A stretch of DNA of 64,000 nt. Source: Dehalococcoidia bacterium (GTDB taxonomy: Bacteria > Chloroflexota > Dehalococcoidia > CAUJGQ01). The notes under the pieces were generated by a model. It did not search any database and was not told the DNA's origin. It saw only the letters and a program-made list of their open reading frames with translations. The position numbers and the translations under genes are program-made. The DNA is taken from assembly GCA_035310145.1 (NCBI GenBank), contig DATGEL010000089.1:1-64000 (forward strand), read 5' to 3'. This document shows positions 25,978-32,188 of the stretch, piece by piece; positions within the stretch are counted from its first letter, which is position 1; each line of letters begins with the position of its first letter.

Positions 25978-26994
25978 TTACAGAATGCGGCTGGCGCCCC
26001 GCGCGTCTTCCTCCCGCTCGGCCTCCGCTTCCCAGCCCGGCAGGTGGTGCTTCGCGTAGGCTCGCGGCACGCGCGTGGTGAACATCGAGCCGACGAGCGG
26101 CCAGTTGCGCGGCACCAGGACTAACGCCGCCACGTGGATGCAGAGGAAGGCGAGGATGAAGAGCGTGGCGCCGTCGTGCAGGAAGGTCGCCGCCTGCCTG
26201 AGCCCGGCCGGCATGGCGAAGACGTAGTGCAGCGACTTGACCAGGCCCGTCAGCACGATGATCGCGATCAGCACCGTCCAGATCGTGTAGGAGAGCACCT
26301 TCTCCGTGGCCAGGTACTTGCCCGGCGGATCCGGCGCGAGCTTCAGCGCCCGCAGCGGCTTCTGCAGCGGCCGCCGGATCACCGGCGGCAGCTGCACGCC
26401 GAAGGCGCCTCGCAGGCCGCGGTAGACGCCGGTGTAGCTGATCACCTCGGCCAGCGCATTCTTAACGTCGGCAAGCCGGCGCGGCACGAGGCCGGCGCCG
26501 CCGCCAGCCAGCTCAAAGGTGAGGTGGTAGGCGACGGCCGCGAGCGTGAGCCCGGCGCCGATGAAGTGCAGCAGGTAGGTCGTTTCCAGCGAGAAGGGCC
26601 GGCCGATCCAGCGCTTCAGCCAGGCCGCCGTGATCAGGCCGATACCGATGCCGGCGGCGTTGGCCCAGTGCGTAACCACTTCGCTCCACTCGTGCCGGCG
26701 CAGCGAGGTGCCGACCACGAGCACATGACGCCGCCCGCGGCCGCGCACGATCAGCGCCAGGCAGACGCCGGCCGCGAGGATGAACGGCGCCAGCCGCGCG
26801 AAGGCGACGTCCAGCCGGTACAGCCCGCTGCCGCCGAGCAGACCGCGGTACCAGCTACGCGCCCCCTGGTCGTGCGTGACCATCGGCAGCACCAGCACCG
26901 CCCCGACGACGGTCAGCAGCAGCAACAGGGCGGGCAACCAGCGCGTGGACGGGCGTGGCGCTGCGCCGGGGATACGCTCCTGTCGTGCGCTCAT
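25978..26994 (-). CDS. Cytochrome b membrane subunit (formate dehydrogenase gamma / b561-like)
   Basis: About 338 residues from ATG 26994 (GAGGAAG upstream). It has about six hydrophobic helices; likely haem-b His residues are in RRHEWSEVVTHWANAAGIGI, TTYLLHFIGAGLTLAAVAYH and FLHDGATLFILAFLCIHVAA. The layout resembles FdnI/FdhC-type di-haem cytochromes that pass electrons from a periplasmic iron-sulfur protein to quinone. It is the last gene of the molybdo-hydroxylase operon, 73 bases after the ferredoxin gene. The quinone-reducing role is inferred. Confidence 0.85.
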   Translation of the reverse strand: MSARQERIPGAAPRPSTRWLPALLLLLTVVGAVLVLPMVTHDQGARSWYRGLLGGSGLYRLDVAFARLAPFILAAGVCLALIVRGRGRRHVLVVGTSLRRHEWSEVVTHWANAAGIGIGLITAAWLKRWIGRPFSLETTYLLHFIGAGLTLAAVAYHLTFELAGGGAGLVPRRLADVKNALAEVISYTGVYRGLRGAFGVQLPPVIRRPLQKPLRALKLAPDPPGKYLATEKVLSYTIWTVLIAIIVLTGLVKSLHYVFAMPAGLRQAATFLHDGATLFILAFLCIHVAALVLVPRNWPLVGSMFTTRVPRAYAKHHLPGWEAEAEREEDARGASRIL

Positions 26995-27067
26995 CGCTTC
27001 TTCCTCATGCCGGCGATTGAAACCGCCCTGAAGCTGCTGGAGGCCCGGCCTCAGCAAGACCGGCGCA

Positions 27068-27832
27068 TCAGGCCGGCGCCGTCTGTTGCGCCCGCATCTT
27101 CTCGAAGTTGCTCTTGTTCTCGGGCTTCAGCAGGTCGAGGCACATCACGTCGCTCTTGATGATCCCCTGCTTGATGCGCACGTTCACCGGGCAGCGCTCG
27201 ATGCAGGCCGGTCCCTCCGGCCGGAAGTTGCAGAGGTCGCACTTGGCGAAGACGTTCAGCTTCGTGTCGCGCGTGATGCGCGACGTTTGGTGGTAGTGCT
27301 CGCTGGAGACGGCCTGGCTCTCTGGCGGCGTCGGGAAGATGCAGGCCTGCTCGCACTTGCCGCAGGCGATGCAGGTCTTCGGATCGATCACGCGGGCGCC
27401 GGTCTTCCCGTCCACATGCAGCGCATTTACCGGGCAGACGGGCACACAGGGCGCGTCCGGGCACTGCAAGCAGACGTGTTGGAAGAAGCGCCCGCGGTCG
27501 CCGAAGTTCGCCACGATCTGCGGGTCCACCTGCACCGTGTCGCGGTGGTAGATGCGGATACGCGGCACGTCGGAGAGGCCCGCCTGCTTGTGGACTTCGG
27601 AGCACTGGACTTCGCAGGTGAGGCAGCCGATGCAGAGCGACGGATCGGGCATGATCACGCCGCTCGCGTTGGCGATCGAGGGGAAGGCGACGCCCTTGAG
27701 CGCCCCGACGAGCCCCAGCCCGACGAGCGCCACGGAGGCGACGGCGCCGCCCGTCGTCTTCAGAAACGCCCGCCGGTCCATGTCGGCCTGGACCGGCGCG
27801 GCGCCGCCTTGCTGCGTCACCCTTGCCCCCAC
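27068..27832 (-). CDS. Tat-exported four-cluster ferredoxin (electron-transfer subunit)
   Basis: Up to 254 residues. GTG 27832 overlaps the preceding FAD-subunit gene by 16 bases; ATG 27781 (MDRRAFLKTTGGAVASVALV) would give a classic short Tat signal and is equally possible. Cys motifs appear in the order CIGCLTCEVQC, CLQCPDAPCVPVCP, CIACGKCEQAC and CDLCNFRPEGPACIERCP, the four [4Fe-4S] pattern of FdhB/DmsB-type subunits. The Tat motif RRAFLK places the protein outside the membrane. It should carry electrons from the molybdo-hydroxylase to the cytochrome b encoded next. Confidence 0.92.
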   Translation of the reverse strand: MGARVTQQGGAAPVQADMDRRAFLKTTGGAVASVALVGLGLVGALKGVAFPSIANASGVIMPDPSLCIGCLTCEVQCSEVHKQAGLSDVPRIRIYHRDTVQVDPQIVANFGDRGRFFQHVCLQCPDAPCVPVCPVNALHVDGKTGARVIDPKTCIACGKCEQACIFPTPPESQAVSSEHYHQTSRITRDTKLNVFAKCDLCNFRPEGPACIERCPVNVRIKQGIIKSDVMCLDLLKPENKSNFEKMRAQQTAPA

Positions 27833-28797
27833 GCCTCGAGGATCGAGCGCACGATCAGGCTCTTCGCCAGGCCGACCTTGTAGGCGTTGTTCGTCATCGG
27901 CCGCGCCGGCAGCAGCGCCTGGTCGGCCGCCTGCTGGGCAAGCCTGGCGTCGACGGCCTGCCCTTTGATCACGTCTTCGGCCGCCGTCGCGCGGTAGGGC
28001 GTCGGCGCCACACCGCTGAGCACGATGCGGCTTTCGCTGACCTTGCCGTTCTCCTTGGTGATCACCGTGGCGATGTTCGCCATGGCGAAGTCGTAGGTCT
28101 GGCCGCGCCGCTGCGCCTTGAACCAGGCCATCCCCGTGCCCGGTTTCGGCGCCGGGATGCGGATCTCCTTGAGCAGATCCCCCTGCGAGAGGATGTTCTC
28201 GCGCAGCACGTCGACACGCGGGCCGGTGAAGTAGTTGTCGAACGAGACCGTCTTGTCGGCGGTCGGCGTGCTGATCACGGCGCTTGCGTTCAGCGCCATC
28301 AGGGCGGGCGCCGTATCCGAGGGGTGCACGATGTAGCAGAGCTCGCCGTTGAGGATGGCGTGATAGGTGTTGGAGCCCGTGACGGCGAAGCAGAAGTTGC
28401 CGCCCTTCTTGTAGCAGTCGAACTCCGTGTTGCGGAAGTACCAGCAGCGCGGCCGCTGGTTGATGTTGCCGCCGATCGTGCCCACGTTGCGGATGTTCGG
28501 CGAGGCGGCGGCGCCGGCAGCCCTGGACAGCACGGAATACGTCTTGACGATGTCGGGGTGCCGTTCGATCGCGGAGAGTGTGGCCAGGGCGCCGATCGTC
28601 AGGCCGTCGGACTTGGCGGTGATCGCGTCGCTGCCGTCGATCGTGCGGATGTCGACGAACGTCTCCCAGCGCGGCAGGCCGCTCCCCTGCAGGCCTTCCT
28701 TAACCATGTCGAGCAGGTCGCTGCCGCCGGCGATGGCGCGCGCCTTCGGCGCCTTCGCCAGCGCAACCGATGCCTGCCGCCAGTCTGTGTGCTTCAT
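27817..28797 (-). CDS. Molybdo-hydroxylase FAD subunit (PaoB/YagS-like)
   Basis: A 326-residue FAD-binding subunit of the xanthine oxidase family. FAD motifs are AIAGGSDLLDMVK near residue 22 and NVGTIGGNINQ near residue 105. It also has four Cys in PRCWYFRNTEFDCYKKGG, NFCFA and LCYIVHPSD, as in the E. coli aldehyde oxidoreductase subunit PaoB, which carries an extra [4Fe-4S] cluster. No signal peptide, so export would be by co-transport with the Tat-tagged 2Fe-2S subunit. It is third in the operon, 62 bases after the molybdenum subunit. Confidence 0.93.
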   Translation of the reverse strand: MKHTDWRQASVALAKAPKARAIAGGSDLLDMVKEGLQGSGLPRWETFVDIRTIDGSDAITAKSDGLTIGALATLSAIERHPDIVKTYSVLSRAAGAAASPNIRNVGTIGGNINQRPRCWYFRNTEFDCYKKGGNFCFAVTGSNTYHAILNGELCYIVHPSDTAPALMALNASAVISTPTADKTVSFDNYFTGPRVDVLRENILSQGDLLKEIRIPAPKPGTGMAWFKAQRRGQTYDFAMANIATVITKENGKVSESRIVLSGVAPTPYRATAAEDVIKGQAVDARLAQQAADQALLPARPMTNNAYKVGLAKSLIVRSILEAWGQG

Positions 28798-28859
28798 GTA
28801 GCCAATGGTTCGCGTCTCGGCCTCCTCGCAGCCGTCTCAGCCCTCGGCCAATCAGCAGG

Positions 28860-31352
28860 CTAGGCGCCGCGCAGCGCGTCCAGAATGCGCGGAGGCGTCA
28901 TGGGCTGGTGGTCGACGTAGATGCCCAGCGCGTCGTGGATGGCGGCATGGATGCTGGCCGAAGCCGGCAGCAGCGCCGGCTCGCCGATCCCCTTGGCGCC
29001 GAACGGGCCGATATGGTCATACGGCTCGACAAAGTCCACCTGCACCTTGTCGGGCAGCGCGTCGAGCATGTGCAGCTTGTAGTCGTCCAGGTTGGGGTTC
29101 ATGATCACGCCCGTCGGCGGATCGTAGAGCAGCTCCTCGGTCAGCGCCTTGTTCATCCCCTGCGTCACGCCGCCGTGGATCTGGTTGATCACCCCGGTCG
29201 GATTGATGGCGCGCCCGACGTCGTGCACCTGGACGGCCTCGGTGACGTGCACGTAGCCGGTGCCCGGATCGACCTCGATCTCATAAAAGCCGGCGCCGAA
29301 GGTCTTCTGCGAGTACCCGCTCGGCGCGGGCACGCGCGATTCGCCGATCAGCGTGCCGGAGACCGGCTGCGGCTGTCCGTCGACGATCACGACGCTGGAA
29401 GCCGCGGCCTGGGCCATGGTGAACTGGAAGTCCCTGTTGCCGGGATCGCTCTTGCGGAAGACGATGCCGTCTTTGATGTCCAGGTCCGAGGTGTCGGGCA
29501 GCTTCCACTTGACGGCGACGCCCTCCAAGAGCTTGTTCTTCGCGTCCTGCGCCGCGGCCAGCATCGCCAGCCCGACGGACTTGGTGCCGCGGCTGCCGGC
29601 GACGATGCCCGTGTTCGGGCCGGCGTGGGTGTCCATGCGCGCGATGCTGACCTGAGAGAGCGGCACGCCGATCGCCTCGGCGGCGATCATGCTCCAGGTC
29701 GTGCCCTGGCCGCCGCCGATATCCGCCGCGCCGGTGTTCAGCAACACCGAGCCATCGGTCTGGATCTGGACGAGGCCGGTCATCGGCGGTCCGGCCGCAC
29801 CCTTGTTGCAGGTGAAGCACATCATGCCGATGCCCTTTTGGGGCCGGGTGAGGTCGAATGGCCCCTTCTTCCAGCCCTTCCAGCGCGCCTGCCAGTTGAA
29901 CAGCTCCGCGCCGCGCATAATCGCCTCGCGCAGGCCGTTGCTGGAGTAGGGCAGGTTCACCACCTGGTCGACGTCGGTGACGATGTTCTTCAGCCGGAAC
30001 TCCAGCGGGTCCATGTCGATCGCTTCGGCGGCCTTGTTGATCAGGTTCTCCGTCATGAAGTTGCCGGAGGCCTCGCCCACCGAGCGCAGCGCCGCGGTGA
30101 TCACCGTATTGGTGAAGGCGGCGAACCCGGCCACCTTCACGTTGGGGATGCGGTAGGTGCGCGTCGCGGACTCCCAGTCGTCGGCGTTGGCGACCGTGCC
30201 GTAGGCGCCGCCGGCGATGTACGACGTGCCCTCGATCGCCGTGATCGTGCCGTCCTTCTTGACGCCGAGCCTGGCGCTGGCGAAGAGCGGATAGTTGTGA
30301 CCTGTATCGACGAAGATGTCCTTGCGGCTCAGCTCCCAGCGCACCGGGCGCCCGGTCTTCTTCGCTAGCAGCGCCGTGAGGATGTGGTAGGCCTGGCGGC
30401 CCGTCTTGTCGCCGAAGCCGCCGCCGGTGTCGTGCGCGAGCAGGTGCACGGCCGACTGCGGCATGCCCAACTCCGCGGCGATCGCGGAGGCGACGCCGTG
30501 CGCGTACTGCGTGCCGCTGTAGATCGTCAACTGGTCGCGGTCCCAGACGGCAACGGCGTTGTGCGGTTCGAGCGCCACGTGCTGCTCGTAAGACGTCTCG
30601 ACGCTGATTTCGACCGTCACGTCCGCCGCGGCGAAGCCCTGGGCCGTATCGCCGCGGGAGTAGCTGAACTGCGGATCGCGGATCGCGTTCGCCTTCAGCG
30701 CATTCCGCACGGCCGCCGCGCCCGCCTTGAGCGCCTCGCGCGGGTCCAGGACGTGGGGAAGTTGCTGGAACTTGACGTCGATCAGCGCCAGCGCCTCTTC
30801 GGCGATCGCCGCGGAGTCGGCGGCGACGGCGGCGACCGGCTCGCCGGCGAAGGCGGGTTCGCCGGTCAGCGCCGGCCGCGGAACTTTGGTCGGTACGTCC
30901 TTGTAAGTGATCACCGCGCGCACTCCGGGGTACGCCTCGGCCTTGCTCGTATCGATCGAGGCCACGGTCGCGTGCGGCAGCGGGCTGCGCAGCACCTTTG
31001 CCCAGAGCATGCCGGGCAGATAGGTATCGACGGAGTACTGGGCGCGCCCGGTCACCTTGTCACGCGCGCGAAAATCCACCGTGGGCTTGCCCACCACGCT
31101 GCCGGCCGCGACGCGCAGCGTGGTGCGGGGTCCGGCCTGCGGGCCGAGCGCCCCCAGGCCGCGCAGGCGCTCCCGGTCGCGCTCCACGTCGGCGGGGCGC
31201 TCTTCCCCGCTGAGGACGCGCTCGATCTGCGAGATGCCGGTGCGGTCTTTAGACTCAATCTCCCGCTGCTGGTGGAGGGCGTGGGTCGAAAGCAGGTCGC
31301 CGTAGACGTAGTCGATCGTGCGGCGGCCGGGCCTTTGCGTATTCTCAGCCAT
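28860..31352 (-). CDS. Molybdo-hydroxylase catalytic (molybdopterin) subunit
   Basis: A large catalytic subunit of about 830 residues; ATG 31352 has AAAGAGG upstream. Xanthine oxidase-family motifs include DTGGGFGDKTGRQAYH (molybdopterin contact), YIAGGAYGTV, the substrate-loop ALRSVGEASGNFMTENL, GLVQIQTDGSVLLNTGAADI, GGGQGTTWSMIAAEAIG, and GPFGAKGIGEPALLP with the catalytic Glu. The loop differs from the CO dehydrogenase form I motif (AYXCSFR) and from the usual RAPGEAPG, so this is not CoxL; PaoC-like aldehyde oxidation is the nearest known type, but the substrate is open. It is second in the five-gene operon. Confidence 0.94.
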   Translation of the reverse strand: MAENTQRPGRRTIDYVYGDLLSTHALHQQREIESKDRTGISQIERVLSGEERPADVERDRERLRGLGALGPQAGPRTTLRVAAGSVVGKPTVDFRARDKVTGRAQYSVDTYLPGMLWAKVLRSPLPHATVASIDTSKAEAYPGVRAVITYKDVPTKVPRPALTGEPAFAGEPVAAVAADSAAIAEEALALIDVKFQQLPHVLDPREALKAGAAAVRNALKANAIRDPQFSYSRGDTAQGFAAADVTVEISVETSYEQHVALEPHNAVAVWDRDQLTIYSGTQYAHGVASAIAAELGMPQSAVHLLAHDTGGGFGDKTGRQAYHILTALLAKKTGRPVRWELSRKDIFVDTGHNYPLFASARLGVKKDGTITAIEGTSYIAGGAYGTVANADDWESATRTYRIPNVKVAGFAAFTNTVITAALRSVGEASGNFMTENLINKAAEAIDMDPLEFRLKNIVTDVDQVVNLPYSSNGLREAIMRGAELFNWQARWKGWKKGPFDLTRPQKGIGMMCFTCNKGAAGPPMTGLVQIQTDGSVLLNTGAADIGGGQGTTWSMIAAEAIGVPLSQVSIARMDTHAGPNTGIVAGSRGTKSVGLAMLAAAQDAKNKLLEGVAVKWKLPDTSDLDIKDGIVFRKSDPGNRDFQFTMAQAAASSVVIVDGQPQPVSGTLIGESRVPAPSGYSQKTFGAGFYEIEVDPGTGYVHVTEAVQVHDVGRAINPTGVINQIHGGVTQGMNKALTEELLYDPPTGVIMNPNLDDYKLHMLDALPDKVQVDFVEPYDHIGPFGAKGIGEPALLPASASIHAAIHDALGIYVDHQPMTPPRILDALRGA

Positions 31353-31378
31353 CGTGATCGCCTCTTTCCGCTCACCGC

Positions 31379-32188
31379 TCAGCCGGCGCTCGCCTTGGCG
31401 GCCTGCGCGACCGCCGCCAGGATGTTTGGATAGGCCGCGCACTTGCAGAGGTTGCCCGACATCGCGCGCCGTATGGCCGCTTCATCCGGGCTCTTGTTGG
31501 TCTGCAGCAGCGCCGTGGCCTGCATGATCTGACCCGGAGTGCAGAAGCCGCACTGCAGCCCCATGTGCTCCATGAACGCCTGCTGCACCGCGCTGAGCGT
31601 GGTGCCCTGCTCAAGACCCTCCACGGTCGTGATCTTCCTGCCGTCTTCACGGATGGCCAGCAGGGAGCAGGAGTTTTGCGGCACGCCGTCCACGATCACG
31701 GTGCAGGCGCTGCACTCGGAGCGATCGCAGCCGATCTTGGTTCCCGTCAGGCCCAGGTTCTGCCGCAGGACTTCGGCCAGGGTCTCGTGCGGGGCGACGC
31801 TGAGCCAGTGGTCGGCGCCGTTCACGTTGAGCCGCACCAGCGCCTGCGAGATCGTTTGCCCCGCGGGTAGGCCGACCGTCACGCCCTGGGCCGCGGCGCC
31901 GCCCGCGGCGCCGGCCGATGTGCCGTTCGTCCCCTTGGCAGGCTGTGCGTTTGTCGCGCCGCCGCTGCTCTTCTTGCCGCCGCCGAGCGAACCGATGCCG
32001 ACCGTGCCCGCCGTACCCGCCGCCGCCCCCGCCGCCGCCGCCACGCCGGCGCCGACGAGAAAGCGTCGCCTCGAGACGGCGCCCCGCGGCGCACCTCCCT
32101 CCTGGCCGGGTTGGCCCTGGGCAGGCGCGGACGCGGGCTCCTGCGGCTTCTCCGGCTCGTCGTCAAACAGACTTCCGTTGTCTGCCAT
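31379..32188 (-). CDS. Molybdo-hydroxylase 2Fe-2S subunit with Tat signal (PaoA/YagT-like)
   Basis: About 269 residues from ATG 32188 (GGGAG upstream). An acidic leader of about 35 residues is followed by SRRRFLVGAGVAAAAGAAAG, a Tat signal, and then a Gly/Ala linker. The mature part has the plant-type cluster CDRSECSACTVIVDGVPQNS plus the distal CGFCTPGQ and NLCKCAAYPN motifs, so two [2Fe-2S] clusters. It is the only one of the three enzyme subunits with an export signal, the arrangement known for E. coli PaoABC. First gene of the operon; an inverted repeat lies 55 bases upstream. Confidence 0.94.
   Translation of the reverse strand: MADNGSLFDDEPEKPQEPASAPAQGQPGQEGGAPRGAVSRRRFLVGAGVAAAAGAAAGTAGTVGIGSLGGGKKSSGGATNAQPAKGTNGTSAGAAGGAAAQGVTVGLPAGQTISQALVRLNVNGADHWLSVAPHETLAEVLRQNLGLTGTKIGCDRSECSACTVIVDGVPQNSCSLLAIREDGRKITTVEGLEQGTTLSAVQQAFMEHMGLQCGFCTPGQIMQATALLQTNKSPDEAAIRRAMSGNLCKCAAYPNILAAVAQAAKASAG

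Follow-up and report, generated by a model that had tools for sequence, protein, structure and literature searches.

Closest Described Systems

Enzymes of the xanthine oxidase (XO) family are mostly soluble and use NAD, O2, ferredoxins or cytochromes c as electron acceptors; to our knowledge, no member is wired to quinone in the manner of formate dehydrogenase. Aerobic CO dehydrogenase (CoxSML) is an XO-family heterotrimer that feeds the respiratory chain from inside the cell, and 4-hydroxybenzoyl-CoA reductase (4-HBCR, HcrABC), which reverses the usual direction of the family, is a cytoplasmic, reductive enzyme with a soluble low-potential ferredoxin as partner. The periplasmic aldehyde oxidoreductase of E. 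coli, PaoABC, carries a Tat signal on PaoA, with which the other two subunits are co-exported (PMC4273604); the final acceptor of its electrons had not been identified by 2014 (PMC3958847). Formate dehydrogenase N (FdnGHI) passes electrons from an extracytoplasmic Mo enzyme through a four-cluster ferredoxin and a di-haem cytochrome b to quinone.

The locus described here lies in a 64,000-nucleotide stretch of Chloroflexota DNA, called the window below, and encodes a small (S), a catalytic (L) and an FAD (M) subunit, a ferredoxin (Fd) and a cytochrome b (cyt b). Its predicted plan is that of FdnGHI, although the catalytic subunit of FdnGHI is of the DMSO-reductase family, whereas L is of the XO family, and FAD and [2Fe-2S] stages intervene in the enzyme of the locus. 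Like PaoABC, the trio S-L-M is an XO-family heterotrimer in which the 2Fe-2S subunit alone bears a Tat signal and the FAD subunit contains the Cys for a [4Fe-4S] cluster, but PaoABC has another gene order and no dedicated ferredoxin or cytochrome. HcrABC also has the [4Fe-4S] cluster in its FAD subunit, and its alpha subunit (1rm6) is the closest solved relative of L, with 298 bits. CoxSML, in contrast, has neither the Tat signal nor the ferredoxin/cyt b pair.

Gene Organization

The original prediction of a five-gene operon held: the genes are intact and co-directional on the minus strand, from 32188 to 25978, in the order S, L, M, Fd and cyt b (Table 1). The intergenic gaps are 26 bp (S/L), 62 bp (L/M) and 73 bp (Fd/cyt b), and M and Fd overlap by 4 bp in a GTGA sequence (27820–27817) that comprises the GTG start of Fd and the stop of M; an alternative GTG start for Fd is found at 27832.

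Table 1. Genes and sequence features of the locus, with positions in the window.
Feature	Position	Strand	Basis
S: small subunit, 2x[2Fe-2S], N-terminal Tat signal	31379..32188	-	PF00111/PF01799, motif
Twin-arginine motif SRRRFLV of S, residues 39-45	32054..32074	-	sequence; motif kept in relatives
L: molybdenum-cofactor (catalytic) subunit, XO family, without signal peptide	28860..31352	-	PF01315, PF02738, PF20256
M: FAD subunit; four additional Cys as ligands of a [4Fe-4S] cluster	27817..28797	-	PF00941, PF03450
Cluster-binding insertion of M, C118-C154	28336..28446	-	Cys invariance and PaoB alignment
Fd: ferredoxin, Tat signal, 16 conserved Cys (four [4Fe-4S] sites)	27068..27832	-	domains, alignment
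cyt b: six-helix di-haem cytochrome b, ATG 26994	25978..26994	-	PF01292
cyt b His109, haem ligand matching FdnI H18	26668..26670	-	alignment
cyt b His143, haem ligand matching FdnI H57 with a one-column offset	26566..26568	-	alignment
cyt b His273, haem ligand matching FdnI H155	26176..26178	-	alignment
cyt b His287, haem ligand matching FdnI H169	26134..26136	-	alignment

The Molybdenum Enzyme

Pfam searches identified Fer2 and Fer2_2 in S (7e-30), Ald_Xan_dh_C and MoCoBD_1/2 in L (1e-64), and FAD_binding_5 and CO_deh_flav_C in M. The catalytic Glu is present in L, within GAKGIGEPALLP, where it lines up with the Glu of the PDB relatives 1t3q and 8uem, and this residue together with the [2Fe-2S], FAD and Moco domains satisfies membership of the XO family. 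In S, the Tat motif SRRRFLVGAG starts at residue 39 and precedes both [2Fe-2S] domains; no signal is present at the start of L or M, leaving S as the only one of the three with a Tat signal.

None of the five genes meets any curated NCBIfam equivalog cut-off, and the locus therefore does not fit any named XO-family enzyme. The best match of L is XdhA, with 457 bits against a cut-off of 780, and the other comparisons also fell short: XdhB (135 vs 310 bits) and XdhC (168 vs 217); 4-HBCR alpha (430 vs 995), beta (152 vs 405) and gamma (163 vs 258); and PaoA (144 vs 322) and PaoC (314 vs 1180). CO dehydrogenase was rejected as the identity of the trio because L lacks the Mo-Cu active-site Cys loop, having ALRSVG where CoxL of 8uem has ACSFR.

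Residues C118, C128, C136 and C154 of M are invariant in 14 sequences and align with the four Cys of PaoB. M scored higher against aldehyde oxidase/PaoB (273 and 206 bits) than against 4-HBCR beta (175 bits). In the XO family, the [4Fe-4S] cluster of the FAD subunit sits where electrons leave the enzyme, and that of M would therefore be a natural contact for Fd. We also considered this cluster as a mark of the exported class, and rejected it because its Cys are kept in most of the unlinked trios whose M was inspected, from a control set of 15 related Chloroflexota trios (M 38–43% identical) with no Fd or cyt b nearby.

The Ferredoxin and Cytochrome b

Fd contains several 4Fe-4S (dicluster) domains and a weak Pfam TAT_signal, and its 16 Cys and twin Arg are invariant in ten sequences. 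Its HMM scores were higher for the HybA/HydN/NrfC/YdhX type (65–55 bits) than for formate dehydrogenase beta (22 bits). FdnH has a C-terminal membrane helix, whereas no hydrophobic stretch was found at the C-terminus of Fd, which has its own Tat signal. An AlphaFold model of Fd from the 10-sequence alignment had a pLDDT of 36 and was not used, and a search of plasmids for named relatives returned only ferredoxins of the HycB/HyfA type or generic 4Fe-4S ferredoxins.

The product of the last gene matches PF01292 (1.4e-10), and its AlphaFold model (pLDDT 80.5) has six predicted membrane helices. The only significant PDB match of this model was 1kqf_C, the cytochrome b of FDH-N (Foldseek, E 3e-4, TM-score 0.78 by target). 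The FdnI-like core corresponds to the last four helices, which contain all four conserved His, while the two helices that FdnI lacks are N-terminal. These residues, H109, H143, H273 and H287, are kept in nearly all of 34 sequences (31–33 of 32–33), and both haem ligands and fold are thus common to FdnI and cyt b. The E. coli FdnI sequence in this alignment agrees with the stretches of FdnI given by a separate comparison. With these four His and the 16-Cys ferredoxin, the locus has two sequence features of a quinone-reducing module of the FDH-N type, quinone reduction itself being only inferred.

Most of what had been predicted for the individual proteins was confirmed. The resemblance to PaoABC held for the export signal and the cluster set and failed at the PaoA and PaoC cut-offs; the extra Cys of the FAD subunit were borne out by their invariance and the PaoB alignment, and the FdhC/FdnI-like cytochrome b by the FdnI haem ligands and the match to 1kqf_C. 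An FdhB-like ferredoxin had also been proposed, and this held only in part: four clusters and an own Tat signal are present, but the HMM scores are not specifically FdhB-like. The direct wiring to the quinone pool is supported as an inference, with no biochemical data.

Conservation of the Five-Gene Unit

A profile scan for Fd over one genome per species (about 85,000 species) identified close relatives in 35 loci, with 42–79% identity; a further 17 matches were weak and unrelated. All relatives are from metagenome bins, nearly all of them assigned to Chloroflexota, with one locus each labelled Tectomicrobia, Bacillota and Planctomycetota. After calling genes with a codon-usage gene caller, we found cyt b after Fd in 32/32 loci where the contig continues, and genes of the Tat-type XO trio described here in 27 of the 35 loci. 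The eight loci without any trio gene are mostly on short contigs or near contig ends, although one (L054) extends for several kb at the Fd locus without a trio. No other exported redox enzyme consistently accompanied the Fd-cyt b pair in the 35 loci.

An uninterrupted S-L-M-Fd-cyt b order occurs in the window and in five other loci (L038, L039, L040, L068 and L071). The group nearest to the window (L038, L039, L040, L041, L049 and L053) has the order S-L-M-Fd-(propeller)-cyt b, S lying beyond the contig end in L053; the gene between Fd and cyt b in one group of loci codes for an exported beta-propeller. In a wider group, Fd and cyt b often lie a few genes or several kb from the trio or face the opposite way, and we thus limit the shared operon to the tighter group. 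Several relatives have MocA and XdhC, which serve Moco maturation in XO-family enzymes, on the flanks of the unit, and in the wider group genes for both, an inositol-phosphatase-like gene and the propeller are found near the trio or the pair. The genome of the window itself encodes TatC and two XdhC homologues.

Between the two main clades M and Fd are about 50–55% conserved vs about 35% for L, which suggests, as an inference, one constant electron module serving varied substrates. In FastTree trees, the linked L and M proteins group together, apart from the non-exported homologues and with a few outliers; L068, L069 and L071 were less firmly placed, and branch supports were not taken into account.

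The Tat signal on S follows linkage to the pair: it was present in 24/24 linked trios and in 1/23 related trios without the Fd/cyt b pair (Fisher p 1.6e-12, uncorrected for shared ancestry). Tat calls rested on the motif and hydrophobicity, without a trained predictor. In L040, the signal of S is in a neighbouring frame, by an apparent frameshift in the metagenome bin, and the frame was left uncorrected. No Tat signal was found on S in five second trios situated within Fd loci, nor on three other S genes in the window's own genome. The one exception among the 15 control trios is L135 (genome G407, same class), whose trio is more distant (M 43% and L 31% identity).

In a sample of 400 genomes of the phylum, nine encoded an M with 50% identity or more, and each of these nine also had Fd; Fd itself occurred in ten genomes besides the window's own. 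Eight other stretches of the window's genome match L, and none is adjoined by an Fd or cyt b of the locus type.

The original prediction was exposed to two objections, that the ferredoxin and cytochrome belong to a different enzyme in relatives and that the trio occurs alone in the lineage. The first does not hold, given the presence of cyt b and of the Tat-type trio in the counts above; the second XO trios at Fd loci have no Tat signal and are only distantly related. The second does not apply to the same subfamily (M at least 50% identical, with Fd in 9/9 such genomes of the 400 sampled); one more distant Tat trio of the same class, that of L135, stands without the pair.

Other Genes Associated with the Loci

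A PD40 beta-propeller gene, whose product is exported and anchored C-terminally, lies beside the Fd-cyt b pair in most loci (L049:9708-10784, L041:9760-10842, L070:10726-11832 and about 20 others). Nearly all full-length members contain CTFACH or CTFGCH (CX3CH), usually with their sole two Cys; the motif might form a disulfide, or it might bind haem c in an unusual way. A search of the window's genome found no specific homologue of the propeller.

In several Chloroflexota from soil (L051:4607-8341, L062:3804-8261, L061:296-3723, L070:4188-8154), the Fd-cyt b pair and a MocA-like gene have beside them a second, non-exported XO trio, with RCNWYDQS...CxK in its FAD subunit. A TatA-like gene is found upstream of the XO trio in L049 (4219-4410, TatA_B_E domain confirmed) and L072 (287-514, by sequence clustering), and genes for plastocyanin-like copper proteins lie between the trio and the pair in some loci (L043:6676-7119 and relatives). 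In L135 (6368-10427), the Tat-like signal of S ends in a lipobox-like LLTACG, with no ferredoxin or cytochrome b nearby, and this trio is possibly an exported, lipid-anchored form.

Proposed Function and Alternatives

The gene content of the unit, its cofactor-ligand residues and export signals, its conservation and the co-occurrence of its parts are established by these data. The five genes likely code for one extracytoplasmic, membrane-attached XO-family dehydrogenase:quinone oxidoreductase of undetermined substrate; that the products form a complex, the direction of electron flow, the quinone acceptor and the activity are inferred from sequence alone. In this model, S, L and M would fold and gain their cofactors in the cytoplasm and then cross together by Tat through the signal of S, as in the 'hitchhiker' route of PaoABC, and Fd would cross by its own signal. 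Outside the cell, the Mo centre of L would hydroxylate a substrate with water, and electrons would pass from Mo to the two [2Fe-2S] clusters of S, the FAD and surface [4Fe-4S] cluster of M, the four [4Fe-4S] clusters of Fd, the two haems b and finally (mena)quinone.

One alternative is that the same complex works in reverse, as a respiratory reductase in which quinol reduces cyt b, the ferredoxin and the Mo site, and ultimately an external acceptor. The relationship of L to 4-HBCR alpha and the 4-HBCR/PaoB-type [4Fe-4S] cluster of M speak for this possibility. However, the scores of M favor aldehyde oxidase/PaoB over 4-HBCR beta, the core of cyt b is of the dehydrogenase type (FDH-N), and 4-HBCR requires a low-potential ferredoxin, beyond what quinol could supply, so that we regard reverse flow as unlikely.

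Alternatively, S-L-M could be an independent, PaoABC-like exported enzyme and the Fd-cyt b pair a general entry module for several extracytoplasmic donors, their adjacency being one of convenience, with no stable complex between them. This is favored by the wider clade, where the pair is several genes away or faces the other way, and by the more distant Tat trio of L135, which lacks it. Against it are the strict co-occurrence of the M subfamily and Fd (9/9), the absence from the 35 loci of an alternative exported redox enzyme consistently beside the pair, and the tight packing of the genes in the window, where M and Fd overlap at GTGA; we consider this explanation improbable too. Finally, the trio could be of a known type (PaoABC, xanthine dehydrogenase, 4-HBCR or aerobic CO dehydrogenase) with an acquired Fd-cyt b anchor, as every domain belongs to the XO family, but this is very unlikely given how widely all equivalog cut-offs were missed, those of XdhA, 4-HBCR alpha and PaoC included, and the missing CO dehydrogenase Cys loop.

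Under the preferred reading, a dehydrogenase complex that reduces quinone, Fd and the FDH-N-type cyt b seem, by analogy and without direct evidence, to supply the acceptor route left unidentified for PaoABC. A bolder reading, towards which the balance of evidence does not quite tip, is that of a distinct Chloroflexota family, in which a constant M-ferredoxin-cytochrome b module would be combined with catalytic subunits diverged to feed different extracellular organics into the quinone pool, and in which the exported propeller (CTFACH/CTFGCH) would be an added redox or binding subunit in most members. We are not aware of any paper describing this arrangement in the open-access literature searched, mostly by titles and abstracts, and this absence is not proof.

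For these relatives, the locus offers a testable answer to where the electrons of an exported PaoABC-like enzyme go, a question open for PaoABC itself (PMC3958847). An XO-family enzyme built on the formate dehydrogenase plan would allow oxidation outside the cell without importing the substrate, with the electrons conserved in respiration. Soils, groundwater and deep lakes or oceans, where recalcitrant organic matter is turned over, harbor abundant Chloroflexota.
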